A stretch of DNA of 64,000 nucleotides from Clavaria fumosa (lineage: Eukaryota > Basidiomycota > Agaricomycetes > Agaricales > Clavariaceae). This document shows positions 49,424 to 58,512 of this stretch, piece after piece. The notes below the pieces were generated by a model. It did no database searches. It was not told the origin of the DNA and was given only the letters and a program-made list of their open reading frames with translations. The stretch covers positions 2,232,001-2,296,000 of the forward strand of contig OX637797.1 of assembly GCA_951802425.1 (NCBI GenBank), read 5' to 3'. The position numbers were made by a program, and so were the translations under genes. Position 1 is the first letter of the stretch. Each line of letters begins with the position of its first letter.

Positions 49424-49430
49424 GATCACG
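49424..49430. repeat. Target-site duplication, left copy (GATCACG)
   Basis: The 7 bases directly before the left terminal repeat; identical to 58506-58512 directly after the right terminal repeat. Confidence 0.88.
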
Positions 49431-49450
49431 CTCTGTAAAAACACAAAGTC
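49431..49450 (+). repeat. Left terminal inverted repeat
   Basis: CTCTGTAAAAACACAAAGTC; its exact reverse complement is at 58486-58505. Confidence 0.92.
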
Positions 49451-49479
49451 GTGTGAAGTCAAGGAAGTGTACACCTTTA

Positions 49480-49735
49480 GTCAATGATAGTCAACCATTA
49501 GTCATGTAATAGTCATCAAATTGATCGGTCAGGAACAGGATGTCATCTGGTGGGAAATCAGCCAGACAATAGTCAAACAATAGTCAGGCAGTAGTCAGGC
49601 AGTGGTCATCCAGTGGTTTTACAATTCTGATCATGTTTTTTCCGGCCGAGCTTTGGATTTCCCATGGAACTCAGTCAGATGACAGTCAGGAAATAGTCAG
49701 GCAGTAGTCAAATGATAGTCATTTCATAGTCTGAT
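49480..49735 (+). repeat. Left subterminal TAGTCA array
   Basis: About a dozen copies of (A/T)TAGTCA(A/T/G) and close variants such as CAGTCAG and AGTGGTCA, irregularly spaced by 8-20 bases. The orientation is opposite to the array at the right end, as expected for transposase binding sites. Confidence 0.8.
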
Positions 49736-51556
49736 GCACTGGTCTGCACACTCACATCCTGAAGTGCAAGATCTGAGGAAAAAGGAGGGCTACAGTAGAA
49801 CTTTGGCAGATATATGATCTTGGGCAAAGTGCTGCTCATTGTCAGAAAGGTGGCAGTTGCTGGTGGCCACCACATGGGATCACATCCAACCAAATTCACA
49901 AGCATTGAAAGTGCTCACAGATGCACAGCATGGTTAGTTATGAAAATGAAATGCAAGGATAAAAACAATATGACTTCCACTTCCCATTCCATAATGAGGA
50001 GAGCAGATGGAAACCAAGAAACAGAAGACACCCACTAGAATCTCTGCATATGAAGTAGCAAAGAAGAGTCTGGTCACAAATTGGTAGGTTTGTTGATGTC
50101 TGAACTTCATGGTCCTGGCTCAACCTCACAACACAACATCAAACCCAGCTTATGGATGATCAAGAACTCAGTCCTATAGCATATGCAGAGCAGTTCCCAG
50201 ATCTGGACATGGTCAATGCACAGTCATCCAAAGAGCTCCCTGCATGTGCATGTCTGACACTTCTGATTGAGCTTAGCAAAGACCCATTGCTGTGCCAGGC
50301 AATGCTTGAATTCTAGGACAACACCCAGGCATCTGTGCTACTGACAGAGAAGGGGATCAACAAAATTGACAAGCATCCTTATTCTGTGAGTGTTCTTAGC
50401 CCATCAAGCTTCCTGCTGTCAGGATTGTTCATGATGAGAGAGACAATATAAGGAGGGTATTTGTCATGTATGTCTTCTTTGCCAACCTTGAGTGCATCCA
50501 TCAGCCATTTGCATGCAAGCTTATAGTCCTCTGGATGAGTGTAGAGGATTCTGATCACCTTTGTCATTATGCCTGTTCTTCCCTGGCTTGTGTTCGATTT
50601 CATGAGAGATGTGGAGGAAGCTGACAGCATTCAAAAAGATCTTTATTGTAAGCAGCTCTCCTTTGATGAATTGGTCAAACTTAAAGAGATTGCTGTGTTA
50701 CAATGACAATTGAACATTAGCAGAGAAGATGGCTAGAATGAACCATTGTGCTGATTTTTCTTCACAAGGAGTGCACCTTGTGCAAACTAAGTCCACAGAC
50801 AAATGGAATATGTTGATAGTATGAATCTGTGGCAGCATAATTTACATCTAAACTCACTCAAATGCAAATAGCAATTCTTCTTCAGGACCTGAGTGGGGTA
50901 AGAATTGGCCACAAAAAAAAAAGAGAAATGAGGTTCCTATCAGATGTTGATCTTCTTCCTCAAAAGATATTGCAAAGCAGCATATTCATTGAGAGGGCTC
51001 TGCATATATCACCCACACAATACTTTGTAGTTGATGACAGAGTGCTGAAAGCATCAACAGCCTGTTTGCTATGTTCATATATGTGGGCCACCTTATCCTA
51101 GACATACATGACCAGTATGTCATATATGTCATATGTGGGTGGAGTCTGGTCAGCCTGCCATGAAGCATTGTTTGCCTACTGTTTCCTATGCTCAGGATGT
51201 CCTTGACTCACTGAGATAGTCATGTGGTAGCCCTGAACTCTTTCTGCTGTGGCTAGACCTGCACCAGTTTTGATTGGCTTCCTCAGACCACCATCTAGGG
51301 AGTTCTTGTGATGACAAGGAGGACCAATGTAGCACCCTACAAACAGCACACACTGCATGTCATATAGGAGGAGCTGGTATTGGTAATGATGTCAACTCCA
51401 TTGTGCTCAACCTGCCATTCCAATTCAGCCACCCTATGATTTTACCCATGAGCTGTATCCTTAGGTTTTGTCTTCCACTCCATTTTAGAATTGCACCAAT
51501 GAAATTCCTTTCTATTGTCACATCCTAATTACCTCCAGAATCACACCTTGACATGG

Positions 51557-51607
51557 CAACAGCAGCAGCAACAACAACAACAACAACTACTACTACTACT
51601 ACTACAA
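51557..51607. repeat. (CAA)n/(CTA)n microsatellite
   Basis: AGCAGC, then CAACAA units, then ACTACT units, continuous over about 50 bases in the transposon left arm. Confidence 0.85.
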
Positions 51608-51879
51608 GCAAGACTACTACAAACACATCTTGTAAAGCACAACTTATCCATCAGTAGAACCAGACTTGATGTGTACATTGAGTAAGTAGTTCTTTGTAGA
51701 GGAGAAGTCACCTAATCATTATACAAAGGTGTAGTAAATATATGAGTGGCCCAATGGAGACTGACTCATACCATCTAGCAGCAGTGCTCATATGATATGC
51801 CAAGTAGACATGAATGGAATAGAGAAAGGCCTACAGCCTTACACAACTAGAAGCACAACTACAAACATGGGTACAAGTA

Positions 51880-51887
51880 CAACAAGT

Positions 51888-51930
<43 letters not shown>

Positions 51931-51972
51931 AAACAACAACAACTACAACTACAACTACAACTACAACTACAG
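51880..51972. repeat. (AAC)n and (AACTAC)n microsatellite beyond the transposase stop
   Basis: Uninterrupted AAC units followed by alternating AAC/TAC units, ending about 17 bases before the transposase stop codon. Confidence 0.88.
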
Positions 51973-51989
51973 CAGCACAGCAGCATCAA

Positions 51990-54900
51990 TTAACTTTCTT
52001 CCTCATCTTCTCCTTCTCCTTCTCTATCATTGATTTCTACACCACATTCCTCTGGGTGTAAGATTCCTAATCCTGGATGTTTCCTCAGAATGTAAACATG
52101 CTCATTTCCATTCCAAATCCCAACAATGTTGCAGAGGTCTGATGCCAGTAAAATGCAGATGTCCTTTGACCAACATCCTCTCCACTGCTTCAGAACTTGG
52201 TGAACATTAACCAATGAATGATAGAGCACCAGCAGTTGTTGTGTCTCTATCACTTCATACATTGCAATTGCTTCACCAAACAATGGCTCTGCAGTTCCCT
52301 CCACCTTGGCTTCAAAATATCGTGCAGACCTGGTTGGAGGGTTGTCTCCCAACTCACTCAGTTGACTGCGGAGCACAGCCTTACCAGGAATCCTAACTTT
52401 TGCCCATCTCTGCAATTTGAGACCAGGGTCAAAGTCCCTCCCCAACCAGGTACAGATTTCTTTCAAATGTAAGAAAAACTTCTGACCCACAGCAAATTCC
52501 TTTTTCAGGATTTTGACCTGTTTGATTGGCCTCAAAACATCCCTTGGAGCTTCTTGTGCTTTCAGGGACAAAACTGGATAGTAAAGCAGCAATGCCCTGA
52601 CTAATTCTCTCTCAAATATGATGTTGGCCAAGTTTGCAAAAGGACGTTTCTTTGAGTGGATCTGATGACCCATTTCTCCAATAGCCCTTTCCACTGTTGC
52701 TTGGGAACCAAGTCTGATTGAGCCATTCCATTCCACATGCCTTGGAATGTGGATGAGTTGAAATATACAAAGCCTGAACCTGGAAACTTTTTCTGAGTCC
52801 TTGCCAACATACAGCCTCTCAAATCCTTCCAGAAACTTCTTTATTAAGACATGGAGCTCATGGAGCTCACTTTCAGTCCTTGGACAGATTGTCATAGAGA
52901 ACTCAACAGCTTCAACAAAAAGAGAGAAGTTCTCCAGAACTGTAGGATTGAATCCCAGTTCAATTCCAATTGGCAGAATATACCAATGGAGCAATGCCAT
53001 CCATTCATAAACTTTGTACTGACTTTGACGCTTTAGATGGGGGTCACGAACAAGTCCACAAAGTGCAGGAGGAAGTGTTGACATTCCCTTAGTCACAAGG
53101 CGACCAAGGTGAGAAGCCTTCTCAGCATCTAAGTGGATAGACTCAGATGGTGAGCTGAAGACTGTCCACAAATCCCAAATGAATGCCATGCAGTTTTCAT
53201 AAAGAAGATGGAATGGATCCAGAGGAAAGAATGTGGGATGTATGAATGCAGGGCTAGCAGCACACAGAGGCATCCGTGCTATGCCTGTTTCTCTAGTGAT
53301 AGCCATTCGGGCTGCTTGGCTTCTTGCACCCTGCAGTTTTTCTATCATATCCCAATATGAGCTCTCATCACGTATTGGCAAATTATCCAGATCATATGAT
53401 GTTGGTCGTTCAGGGTTGTAAGTTTCACTTTCTGGTGGTGCAATAGGGTAGTACTGAGCCTTTGCACCTTTTCTTCTGCTTGCTCGTGCACCCCTAACCA
53501 TACTGAAACGGTCTCCATAGATTGCTGAATGGCCTGCCATCCCATTGAGCTTGGCTGATCCCAGCATGTCCCCCAAGGCCATACAAATATAAGCTCGGTT
53601 GAGAAAATAGGATGAATCCACTGCATCCCACATCCATATCCCTTCACTAGCTTTTGCCATTTCTTCAAACAGGGGGTAGAAGAATGATTCAATATTCCCA
53701 GGAGCCTTTGGTCCTGGAGTGGCAAAGCCAATAATAGAATTTCCTGACTGATATCGAATCTCAGGGGGAAGGTTGAGGAGAATCACAATCAAGAGCCAAG
53801 TTTCTGATTGCTTCTTCATTGTTAACTGAGCCCCATCTGTAGAAATTGCTAATGCAATGTCACGTGAGTCCTTGAAGAGGTCCATATTTTTATAATGGTG
53901 CATATGGACTTTGGCATTTGCAAAATCTGAATATCTATGCAGCTCAGATGCTGTGGCCACTAGGTGCAGAGCCTGCTGCAGACACTTGTCTCGATAACGC
54001 AAAAGCTGTGAGGTCTCTGCATTGGCAAACATTGCCCTGATGGTTCCCATTATTTCCAGTTGCAGCATTTGAGCACAAGGCTTTTGTCTTTTGGACTTGC
54101 TGCTCTGCTTTCGGAAGCGTGGTTCACCACATACTTTCCCATCTCGAATGAAAGGGCAAGAATCTCTGTCTTCAAACTCTCCAGTATAAGCAATACAAGT
54201 GTGGGGACAGATGTCAATCTGTACAGGCCTCAAACCTGTCAGTTTAACTGCATGACTTTTTGCAGCATGTAATGACATTATCTCCACCCCAGCTGCAGCC
54301 TCAAGCACTTTGGCATGAGAATTATATGCCTTCAGAGTTCCCCCAGTTGCCCTCCAAGCGACATAGTGCCTCAATGAATGCAATTCAGATGCACTCAATT
54401 CCTCAACTTGAGGCATTGGAGAAGTTGGCATTGGGGGGACAGTATACCCTCCAAGCAGGTTTTGATGGAGTCCCATCAAAGAGCTTGGGAGACTGAATTT
54501 CACATCCCCCTCTGGTTCATCATCTGAATGACTTCTCTCCCACCCAACATTATCCCCACTATCCAGGCCATCATTCAGGCCATCATCCAGGCCATCATCC
54601 AAGCCACCATCCAGACCATCATCCATCTCATCATCACCCTTGCTCCCAGAACTTTCTGAGCCACTGGAACAAGTTATTCTATCCTCTGCTGCAGGGAACA
54701 CCAGCAGCTCCATAGGGGATGAGACATCTTCATCTTCATCTGCTTTCAGATGAGATTTTTGTACATATAGACTAGCATGTAATAAAGTAGGAAAGAAACT
54801 CACCATCTGCATCATCTGATTGTTCAGCATCTATTAAATTTGCCATTTGAGTATGAATAAAATTAAGGTGAGGCAAACATTACCTTGTATTGCCGAAGGA

Positions 54901-55430
54901 TCTGAGCGCATAATAAATAAGTCAATTTCTATTAAATTAGTCCCAGGCCTACTGTACCTTGATCTATGTCCATGGTCCCTATATGTCAGCATCAGCATGT
55001 GAAACAGTTCAGTGAGGTGAAAATTATCTTACCTTGGCTAATATAGGATTCTTGGCCAGTATAAGATTCTGAAGGGCCAGAAATGTCAATCTAATATTTG
55101 CATCAAATAAAACATATAAAACATACCCTTAGAGTCCATTTCAGCTAGTGTAAATGAAGACTATGAGCAAAGAACTTGAGATATGGAATGAGACTTACCT
55201 TGTTGACCAGATTCTATGTCTGAGAGAGAGTCCATGGTCCTCTCAATACAGTCCTGTAAGTGCATAAGGAACTCATCAGTATGGCCACCTTGGCTCAGTA
55301 GATCTGAGTCATCCTTGAGGTGCCTGCGGATAGTCCTCAGAGCCCTACTGCGAGAGGGAAAGCACTGAGAGCAGTAGCAGAACATCCAGAAGTAGAGAGG
55401 GTGCAGAGGGAGAGAGGATGTGGAGGGCAA
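51990..55430 (-). CDS. Tnp2-like transposase, about 1,034 aa
   Basis: Probable exons 55430-55199, 55144-55127, 55068-55033, 54978-54958, 54901-54884, 54830-54804 and 54742-51990, so five tiny in-phase exons precede one 2.75-kb exon. The N-terminus has a Cys-rich, His-containing segment (FWMFCYCSQCFPSR then RTIRRHLKDD), like the small zinc fingers in front of such transposases. Acidic repeats encoded by a 12-bp array follow (54560-54630). A Cys cluster (CPHTCIAYTGEFEDRDSCPF) precedes the catalytic core: IALAISTDGAQLTMKKQSET, WLLIVILLNLPPEIRYQSGN, FATPGPKAPGNIESFFYPLF, GIWMWDAVDSS. This is the pattern of Tnp2-type DDE transposases; the Asp of STDGAQ is the likely first catalytic residue. Boundaries of exons 2-6 are inferred from phase and splice sites only. 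Confidence 0.85.
54560..54630. repeat. Degenerate 12-bp coding repeat (CCATCATCCAGG type)
   Basis: About six units encode the DDGLDGGLDDGL acidic run in the transposase N-terminal region. Confidence 0.7.
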
Positions 55431-55583
55431 GGTGCAGCAGTGCGGGCATCAGCATTCCAGCACTCGCATCAGCACTTTGTCGCCGCTTTGTGGCATGGGA
55501 GTAATATTTGAGGCTGTGCGCAGCGCGCGGTTGCAAAGCAAAGTACAACTCATCGGCCCGCTATCCCTATCCCCCTCTTCTCC
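55431..55583. promoter_or_regulatory. Internal bidirectional promoter of the transposon
   Basis: 153 bp between the divergent start codons of the transposase and the partner gene. The abrupt change from CpG-free to CpG-containing DNA (for example GCGCAGCGCGCGG near 55518-55530) occurs just around here. Confidence 0.55.
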
Positions 55584-58061
55584 ATGGCTCCCTCTGTTTT
55601 CCCCCAACCGATTATGTTTGATAACGACGCTCTTTTTCAAATGCCCAACGCCCCCTCATTTTCTTCATCACTTCAACCAGCTCGCCACGACAATGCCATG
55701 ATGCATCCGATGCCCCCTTCGCTTCGTATTGAACACCTCGAGCTCGCAGACCTCCTCAAGAACCCTCATGTACAACAGATGTACAATAACTGGCAGGATG
55801 CATCCACACAGGCTGTCAAGGCACTACAAACGCAACAAGTTCTTTATCTCGAAAACAACCGCCTTCGCACAGAGATCGAGGATCTCAAGACCGCCAATTG
55901 GCGACAATTAGGGTTCCTTTTTTTCTTTTTTCTCTTTTTCCTCTTCGTTTACTCATTAATTCAAATATAGGGGAAAGATTTCACCATTGCCAGGAACGAC
56001 TTCAATCTCGCCCAGCGACTCGTACTCAACCATATCATTTGACTTCCAACCAGCGACGAGACCGACCCAATACCCACCCGAAGTTCTCTGGTGCCTCGAC
56101 GACTGTAAACGCGATCCTGACATGAAGATTTCCGAGTCAAATTTATCAAGACCCGCAATGGACAAAGCTATCCGCCATCCCGATGGGACGATGGTCTCCG
56201 CTGGTGAATGGTCTGCGATCAAGGCGACAGCTCGGCTTGTCAAAATCGACCTCCTGCAACTCTCCCCACCATCCGATCGACGAGCGAAAGGACGCGCCAA
56301 GACCAAGACATATTTCCGCACCTACTTCCCTCAGGAATGGACGACCGCAATCGCAAAGATGGAGAAGCAACAGCCCCTTTTGAGGCTCTGTGCTGCGCAC
56401 TGGAAGGCAGATCATGTCCTCGGTAATTCTCTCCTTATTCGAAATGACAAGTCCAAAGATTGTGACTATGACGAAACCGAGGACGATACGACATCGCACA
56501 GCACCAATCCGTCCGCCCGCCCTACCGCCCGTCCTCCCACTTATCCCCCGCCCTCCTCCAGTGGTTCGAAGCGACCTACATCGCCTATGCAATCTCCCAA
56601 GAACAAAAAGAACAAAACTACTGGTACATACGCTTTTCAGTTTCAAGCATTATCTCATTGTGTATTTACATGTAGATCCCCTGAAACGCACCAAGTTTGC
56701 CGCCCCAGGCTTCCTAAAACCCAAGAGTAAGATCGCCTCTACGAGTACCATTCCAGGCCCCAGCACAAGTGCTACCAGCAGTGTGAATGCGAATACGAGC
56801 ATTGGCACGATGGCCAGCATCAACACAAGTACTGCCGCCACGACTCACACGACTCACAGCCTCTCGATCTCATCAAGAAAAGGGAAGGCTCGTGCAGACG
56901 GCAACGCAACTACCGATAGCGCCTCGAATCTGGTCACCAACCAGGGCACAACCCACGACACTACGACCAATGGCTCCTCAAATCAAATGACTGATAAGAG
57001 TAATGTGCAGGCCAGCAGCAGCATCAACACTGGCGATGGCGCAAATGCGTGTAGTGCTCATATTGTAGCCTCTTGTGCGTCCCAAGTTCTTTGCACGATA
57101 TTCGCCTGCTCACATCGATCACATTTCATGCAGTTGAAAGTCTTAAAGGTATGTAATGTACTCTTATTATGTCTAGTTTGACATTACTGAGCCGCACATC
57201 TTTAACAGTCTTATTTTCGCAAGAATTTTCGTCGATTCCGCTTGCCATCAACCTCCTTGACGCCATGAGCACGAACATCATCCCCGACAGTGCTCAACCT
57301 TCTCAAGAAATGATTGCCTTCATTGAACGCATCGAGAACGCCGACCCGAACGACCCAAGCATCTCTGAAGATGACGGGAATGAGAGCTGGGGCCATGCCC
57401 AGTTCACTTCCGGTCATCTCTCCTTGCGTAGCGTGCTGACCAGTTGGGACAGCGTCGGAAACACCACAACTGCCTGTCGATTGATTGCTGCTGCCCTCAA
57501 GACCTCAGTCGTCGCAAGATATATTTGCGCTCAGAAGGGAATCAAGCCGTCATCATACTTGAGCGATATGTATTTAGGTATGGTTGTTGAACAGCTTTGG
57601 GAGGCATGGAGAAGTAAAGAAATGGTGCGTCGTTTCTGTCTCGGGATTTCTTCTACTTATTCCAAACATGTAGGTCACGGCTCCTTCATTGTCGGATGTG
57701 GCAACTTCGGCGGCGGCCCCACCCCCTCCTCTGCAGACGCTGGCCAGTCCCACAGTTATGCCCTCCCCCCAACCAGCACTTCGCACCCAGTTGCAGGTAA
57801 ACTCCGCTTCTGTTATTAGAGTGCAAACGGACTCACCTTGTCTAGCTTTTGACGAAAGAGGAGCTCAAAGAGCTCCTCAAGCAGAGCTCTCAAGCTGGTG
57901 CGGCAAAGAAGAGCCGCACCAAAGAAGGTTTTTATGCTTCTTTTTCTCAGATGGATTTCTAACCTTTATGAGCTACAGATCTAATATCCGTGGTTCTGCG
58001 TGAAACGAATATTTCAGCGGAGGTGATTGAAGGGATTGTAGGCTCAGTAAGCGTTCCTTAG
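55584..58061 (+). CDS. Transposon partner gene, 691 aa, unknown function
   Basis: Exons 55584-55912, 55971-56623, 56676-57050, 57134-57148 (15 nt), 57209-57624, 57674-57796, 57846-57927 and 57979-58061; every phase closes. Residues 55-105 form a coiled coil (VKALQTQQVLYLENNRLRTE region). Domain A, about residues 135-285: PPEVLWCLDDCKRDPDM, GEWSAIKATARLVKIDLLQL, KTKTYFRTYFPQEWTTAIAK, LLRLCAAHWKADHVLGNSLL. A long Ser/Thr/Asn-rich linker with basic patches follows. Domain B, about residues 455-600: FSSIPLAINLLDAMSTNIIP, SWGHAQFTSGHLSLRSVLTS, NTTTACRLIAAALKTSVVAR, YLGMVVEQLWEAWRSKE. A Lys-rich helix and short tail end it. I know similar agaricomycete hypothetical proteins but no function. Position inside the terminal repeats and divergent pairing with the transposase suggest a role in, or hitch-hiking on, transposition. 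Confidence 0.82.
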
Positions 58062-58160
58062 ATGATATTGATAATTTCTTACAGTTATTCAGCGACAAGG
58101 GAAGAAAGGAGTCCGGAGGGGTTGATGTAGAGCAGGTAGCGCATCATAACACCCTTGAAA
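58062..58160. other. 3' flank of partner gene inside the transposon
   Basis: Short non-coding spacer before the right subterminal array. Confidence 0.4.
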
Positions 58161-58164
58161 TTGT

Positions 58165-58480
58165 TGGACTTTGCCTCGACTTTAGCCTTGCAATCTATGA
58201 CTTTTGCTTGACTATTTGCAACATTTACCTGACTAACGTTTGACATTGAGTTGACGAAGTGGGAAAATTGATTATTATCAATATAATTAGCCGACGTTTT
58301 ATTGACTATTACTTGACTTTTACCCAACCTAGCTTGACTGTTGCTTGACTATAGCTAGTACTGTGCCGATGCCAATGGTTGACTATTATGCGACTGATTC
58401 AGTCCAGCAGCAGTCAGGCAAATGCAGCAAAAAGGGCATTTAGTCAAGTTGCCCCTCAAACTCGACTATTACTGTGCAAT
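58165..58480 (-). repeat. Right subterminal TGACTA array
   Basis: About ten or more TTGACTAT/CTTGACTT/CCTGACTA strings, the reverse complement of the left-arm motif, with a few in the opposite orientation (CAGTCAGG, TAGTCAAG) near the end. Confidence 0.8.
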
Positions 58481-58485
58481 AGCTG

Positions 58486-58505
58486 GACTTTGTGTTTTTA
58501 CAGAG
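58486..58505 (-). repeat. Right terminal inverted repeat
   Basis: Exact reverse complement of 49431-49450. Confidence 0.92.
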
Positions 58506-58512
58506 GATCACG
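58506..58512. repeat. Target-site duplication, right copy (GATCACG)
   Basis: Identical to 49424-49430. Confidence 0.88.

Follow-up and report, generated by a model that had tools for sequence, protein, structure and literature searches.

A 9,075-bp element of Clavaria fumosa, measured from outer end to outer end of its terminal inverted repeats (TIRs), is likely to be an autonomous DNA transposon of the cut-and-paste type, carrying two divergent genes, one of them for a tnp2-family transposase of RAG1 type, and it is a new variant inside the RAG1/CMC lineage. It lies on contig OX637797.1 within a stretch of 64,000 nucleotides; this whole stretch, and not the element alone, is called the window, and coordinates are positions within it unless a contig or locus is named. 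The features of the element, including its target-site duplications (TSDs), are as follows:

49424 to 49430, unstranded: left TSD, GATCACG, the same as at 58506-58512, agreeing with the GTNAC target core at three of the four positions scored
49431 to 49450, plus strand: left TIR, CTCTGTAAAAACACAAAGTC, equal to the right end at 20 of 20 positions and with 10 exact copies in the genome
49431 to 49780, plus strand: left subterminal region, TAGTCA ten times in 350 bp (28.6 per kb versus 0.13 per kb elsewhere in the window)
49431 to 55327, unstranded: CpG-depleted transposase module, bounded by the maximum-likelihood CpG change point at 55327
51990 to 54830, minus strand: main open frame of the transposase, 946 aa, PF02992 Transposase_21 (profile E 7.7e-14)
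52095 to 52541, minus strand: predicted BAH-like C-terminal domain, residues 764-912
52554 to 54392, minus strand: predicted RAG1/Transib-like catalytic core, residues 147-759
55199 to 55385, minus strand: likely upstream transposase exon (MFCYCSQC..., Cys/His-rich), an open frame that runs to a GT donor
55386 to 55583, unstranded: gap between the divergent genes and module junction, at the homology break with the sister subfamily and adjacent to the CpG change point
55584 to 58061, plus strand: gene 2, a predicted 8-exon, 699-aa accessory protein (spliced model; 18 homologues)
58031 to 58505, minus strand: right subterminal region, TGACTA five times in 475 bp, mirroring the left array (10.5 versus 0.11 per kb)
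58486 to 58505, minus strand: right TIR, the exact reverse complement of 49431-49450
58506 to 58512, unstranded: right TSD, GATCACG, second copy of the left 7-mer

A preliminary description of this DNA had proposed a complete transposon with CTCTG ends, a 7-bp duplication, mirrored repeat arrays and two open genes. The inverted ends and the GATCACG outside them proved exact, the 20-bp TIR being matched twice in the window and never in 100 shuffles, and the flanks share no repeat of up to 12 bp other than the 7-mer and a trivial 1 bp. Both subterminal arrays likewise stand far above the rate in the rest of the window. To score the duplication more broadly, we used 15 independent insertions with both ends, comprising four full elements and 11 miniature inverted-repeat transposable elements (MITEs); five MITEs sharing the flanks of locus L049 were dropped as duplicates, and the truncated or single-end loci L047, L059, L061 and L062 and some partial MITE copies fall outside the set. 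An exact 7-bp repeat borders 11 of the 15 insertions, and none of these 11 has another repeat longer than 1 bp. The MITE at C11:2434148, counted among the 15, matches at 6 of 7 positions. The 11 exact targets fit the palindrome G-T-N-A-C at positions 2-6 with 39 of 44 core matches, compared with a maximum of 25 in 100,000 draws of 11 7-mers from the window; they are also closer to perfect palindromes than background (p about 1e-4).

A search of the 48.8-Mb genome with the 20-bp end, as the preliminary description had advised, recovered the ten exact occurrences as four pairs and two single ends and revealed further copies with 7-bp duplications. Four full copies, the window element included, terminate at the same bases, and both ends are of CTCTG type in all four and in the MITEs scored. 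The preliminary description had named two findings that would speak against a transposon, namely that no other copies share the ends or that conserved sequence extends beyond them; the copies do share the ends, and a comparison of about 500 bp of flank (428-500 bp per side) of the four full copies found no between-copy similarity. The copy at C10:2917623-2926694 differs from the window copy by 26 substitutions and three short indels, and the TSDs of the pair differ; the copy at C5:655184-664646 carries 204 substitutions, and that at C4:228625-240341 carries 45 together with a 2,631-bp insertion. This insertion (L009/L010), at the equivalent of window position 58309, encodes a protein that by eye resembles a pogo/Tc1-type transposase.

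Searching with the right end as query also recovered a family of 247-bp MITEs, of which 15 copies are full-length, with shorter or partial ones besides; their ends equal those of the element at 17 of 20 positions. Ten of the full-length copies are 100% identical and represent five independent insertions, since six of the ten have the same flanking sequence and were taken as a single insertion. These six lie on six contigs (C10:17812, C9:139474, C7:298504, C4:4115347, C3:144809 and C2:4614646), and the insertion site itself is therefore a duplicated repeat. That the element may be young enough to be active, as previously suggested, is supported at the sequence level by the few differences between the window and C10 copies, by these five independent insertions of identical MITEs, and by the 946-codon transposase frame, which is uninterrupted in three of the four full copies.

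The transposase scores 51.8 bits against PF02992 (tnp2), above the curated cut-off of 28.6, and a Pfam scan of the protein returned Transposase_21 only. Among 7,990 candidates scored, 175 homologues were found at E<=0.001, and Transposase_21 was matched in all 41 aligned members. D332, D421, H694, H698 and E714, constituting a DDE triad assigned by spacing rather than by residue-level structural alignment, together with an H(3)H motif, are invariant in 41/41. In none of the 41 is there a C-x2-C between residues 421 and 480, and residue 440 is D in 40 members and C in one. Structural comparison of the predicted model matches the core to the RAG1/Transib fold and, by structure only, the C-terminal domain to a BAH fold, a tail that would probably tether the transposase to a histone mark. 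By eye, the likely upstream exon resembles the N-termini of homologues P0068 and P0105.

Base composition divides the element in two. At the CpG change point (support 55288-55465) the fraction of C followed by G rises from 2.1% on the left to 18.8% on the right; TpG and CpA are in excess on the left, and the right half is normal in CpG. The observed/expected CpG ratio is 0.03-0.15 at six transposase loci of the element's family versus 0.41-0.96 at 16 loci in the same genome that belong to other tnp2 families. Divergence was measured against a sister subfamily, C1/C2a, with locus L036 treated as belonging to the C2a element; homology to it is alignable up to 55385 and again from 55599. Synonymous divergence (dS) of the transposase from this reference is 0.173 (C1) and 0.133 (L036), and reaches 0.325 in an N-terminal C2a fragment of 100 codons. 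For gene 2 it is 0.95-2.0 in exons 1 and 2 and saturated in exon 5, with a ratio of nonsynonymous to synonymous divergence of 0.08-0.16, so that gene 2 stands at about 3 to 15 times the transposase. Transversions, which are not caused by CpG decay, amount to 1.3-3.7% in the transposase region, 5.0-6.4% in the left non-coding part, 9.6-10.7% in gene 2 (3 to 8 times the transposase) and 6.3% in the final 127 bp. The element is mosaic: its CpG-depleted transposase half and its gene-2 half, with normal CpG, differ in age and are joined near the divergent promoter. The homology break at 55385-55599 falls between the divergent genes, and the simplest reading is recombination at that place.

A possible, though clearly less probable, account of the CpG contrast is long-term differential methylation, with gene 2 unmethylated and the transposase methylated and no exchange of modules. 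It fits two properties of the older sister copy C2a that count against a plain exchange: its gene 2 is also CpG-richer than its transposase side (CpG 0.34-0.90 on the gene-2 side), and its CpG change point is displaced from the homology gap by about 70-200 bp towards gene 2. Divergence from the sister subfamily, moreover, already increases in the transposase N-terminus. Since the sister gene 2 is CpG-richer too, one simple swap is not a full explanation. The right halves of inserted copies also lose CpG, which accounts for most private changes in C4b (16/18), C5 (98/123) and the window copy (5/6) and for one of two in C10, and this suggests methylation. However, methylation alone leaves the excess of gene 2 over the transposase in both synonymous divergence and transversions unexplained, and we retain the mosaic on these grounds.

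As for the genes themselves, the transposase is indeed a single open frame as the preliminary description had it, but gene 2 is open only as the predicted spliced model. Its 18 homologues come mostly from named Agaricomycetes, including Infundibulicybe, Artomyces, Hypsizygus, Sparassis, Agaricus and Laccaria, and share a layout in which a helical N-terminus and a helical domain are followed by a variable linker, a second helical domain and short C-terminal helices. An excerpt of PMC2613891 reports that TNPA of the maize transposon Spm binds subterminal repeats, and one of PMC10398659 that TnpA activity correlates with demethylation. Because gene 2 adjoins the subterminal repeats and Spm offers this precedent, a TnpA-like role is the best guess: gene 2 probably encodes a partner that binds the mirrored TAGTCA repeats, the likeness to TnpA being one of proposed role only. 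That gene 2 is instead a captured host gene seems unlikely; the CpG ratio of its half does resemble that of the window outside the element, but among the 42 gene-2 matches listed most lie in element copies (C2:4372k and C3:794k are unplaced), and a related gene 2 is present in the sister subfamily. A distant gene-2 relative at C3:793897-794887, with 40% identity over 380-604, was linked to no transposase and may represent a separate family.

Among known systems, Transib elements leave 5-bp TSDs, and RAG2 is the PHD-bearing partner of RAG1. The present element differs from Transib and RAG1-RAG2 in its 7-bp TSD, its ends and its lack of C(2)C, and its predicted BAH-like tail stands where RAG1 has RAG2. 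The CMCT clade, as characterized in the part of PMC12730594 consulted, has CA..TG ends in most cases, TSDs of 2-5 bp and a shared C(2)C; the element has the DDE with H(3-4)H between the second D and E, and lacks the C(2)C after the second D, the 2-5 bp TSD and the CA..TG termini. Plavaka (PlavakaA/B) elements are Agaricomycete transposons of the same broad clade, but the same part of PMC12730594 gives them TGT..ACA or CATCA..TGATG ends and TSDs of 2-3 bp, unlike those seen here. Titles and abstract openings among the literature records listed, a scope that excludes Repbase and the supplements of PMC12730594, mention no tnp2 element with a 7-bp TSD and no BAH-bearing transposase. The earlier label of an unusual or unnamed branch is thus supported in its first half, relative to what PMC12730594 covers in that part; an existing Repbase family entry is possible, and "unnamed" is not proven.

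A misleading tnp2 label on a KDZ (Kyakuja) or hAT-like element is very improbable. Fungal Kyakuja and hAT7 elements do make 7-bp TSDs (PMC12730594, in part), those of Kyakuja in Agaricomycetes, but Transposase_21 is matched throughout the aligned members, the predicted fold is that of RAG1/Transib, H(3)H precedes the last E, and Kyakuja, of a different transposase group, is described there as having CA..TG ends and no TIRs, in contrast to the TIRs and CTCTG ends found here. With CACTA/EnSpm (CMC) elements ours has in common the tnp2/Transposase_21 transposase, subterminal repeats and a second product in TnpA-like position, such repeats and a second product that binds DNA being typical of CACTA according to the excerpt of PMC2613891; the predicted BAH-like tail is a feature set against them, CACTA itself not having been checked for BAH. 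We nevertheless give almost no credence to an ordinary CACTA element whose 7-bp repeat is a chance extension of a 2-3-bp duplication, and reject CACTA/EnSpm membership: the ends are CTCTG and not CACTA/CA, the duplication is exactly 7 bp in 11/15 insertions, with no insertion showing 2-6 or 8-12 bp, and C(2)C is absent in 41/41.

We favour an autonomous RAG1-type element working as follows. The transposase, with its tnp2-family DDE and predicted RAG1/Transib-type core, would cut at the CTCTG...CAGAG ends and transfer these to target strands at points 7 bp apart, with a preference for the palindrome N-G-T-N-A-C-N. The gene-2 protein, by analogy with Spm TnpA, would probably coat the inverted TAGTCA/TGACTA repeats, align both ends and perhaps counter silencing. 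On this account the 247-bp MITEs would be mobilised by this machinery or by a close relative's, and the mosaic would have arisen through recombination within or close to the promoter that lies between the genes. New relative to the preliminary description are the predicted model with RAG1 and BAH folds, the palindromic target, the mosaic of two ages and the MITE family. In its fullest form, a fungal RAG1/CMC branch with a BAH histone-mark reader attached to its RAG1-like core, half of the usual zinc site missing, a stagger widened to 7 bp at GTNAC and a TnpA-like partner gene exchanged modularly between lineages to evade silencing, the proposal is tentative and, taken jointly, doubtful.

Several observations weigh against this explanation. 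An exact repeat is missing in four of the 15 insertions, where agreement is 6/7 (C2b and L070), 5/7 (C5) and 3/7 (L063); the C2b and L070 mismatches are each one C/T change at a CG, and a joined-flank search for empty sites returned filled sites and half-sites only. Another transposase could move the MITEs, as their ends differ at 3/20 positions. The predicted local distance difference test score falls below 50 at residues 334-341 and 422-425, adjoining the presumed catalytic D332 and D421; the BAH structural match is weak (Foldseek E 0.1), and no BAH family occurs among profile matches of the 41 members at E<=1. The gene-2 introns rest on prediction without RNA confirmation, and the intron 1 donor, GTTCCT, is unusual. 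Its fold, predicted on homologue P0121 and not on the window protein, matches no solved fold. A SAP label is one source's protein name only (P0133, "SAP domain-containing"), and a Pfam scan of 20 gene-2 rows gave no SAP and a weak Ish1 in 2/20.

TSD length is a readout of strand-transfer complex geometry. If the favoured explanation is true, the 7-bp stagger and symmetric target would mean that the RAG1-type lineage, the source of V(D)J recombination, is less fixed in geometry than described, and the BAH-like tail would constitute a second route to chromatin-guided targeting beside the RAG2 PHD finger. The near-identical copies and MITEs would then provide a natural two-component system, testable in yeast or in a mushroom model.

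Two further observations concern other tnp2 sequences in the genome. At C2:970048-998890, order and orientation suggest a sister-subfamily element split by a nested insertion of about 18 kb, with its right end at 970048 and its transposase near 997022. On C7 and C8, loci L064-L069 with L026 and L031 form a tnp2 pair with 98.8% identity across at least 16.4 kb, a length well beyond that of one transposase gene.
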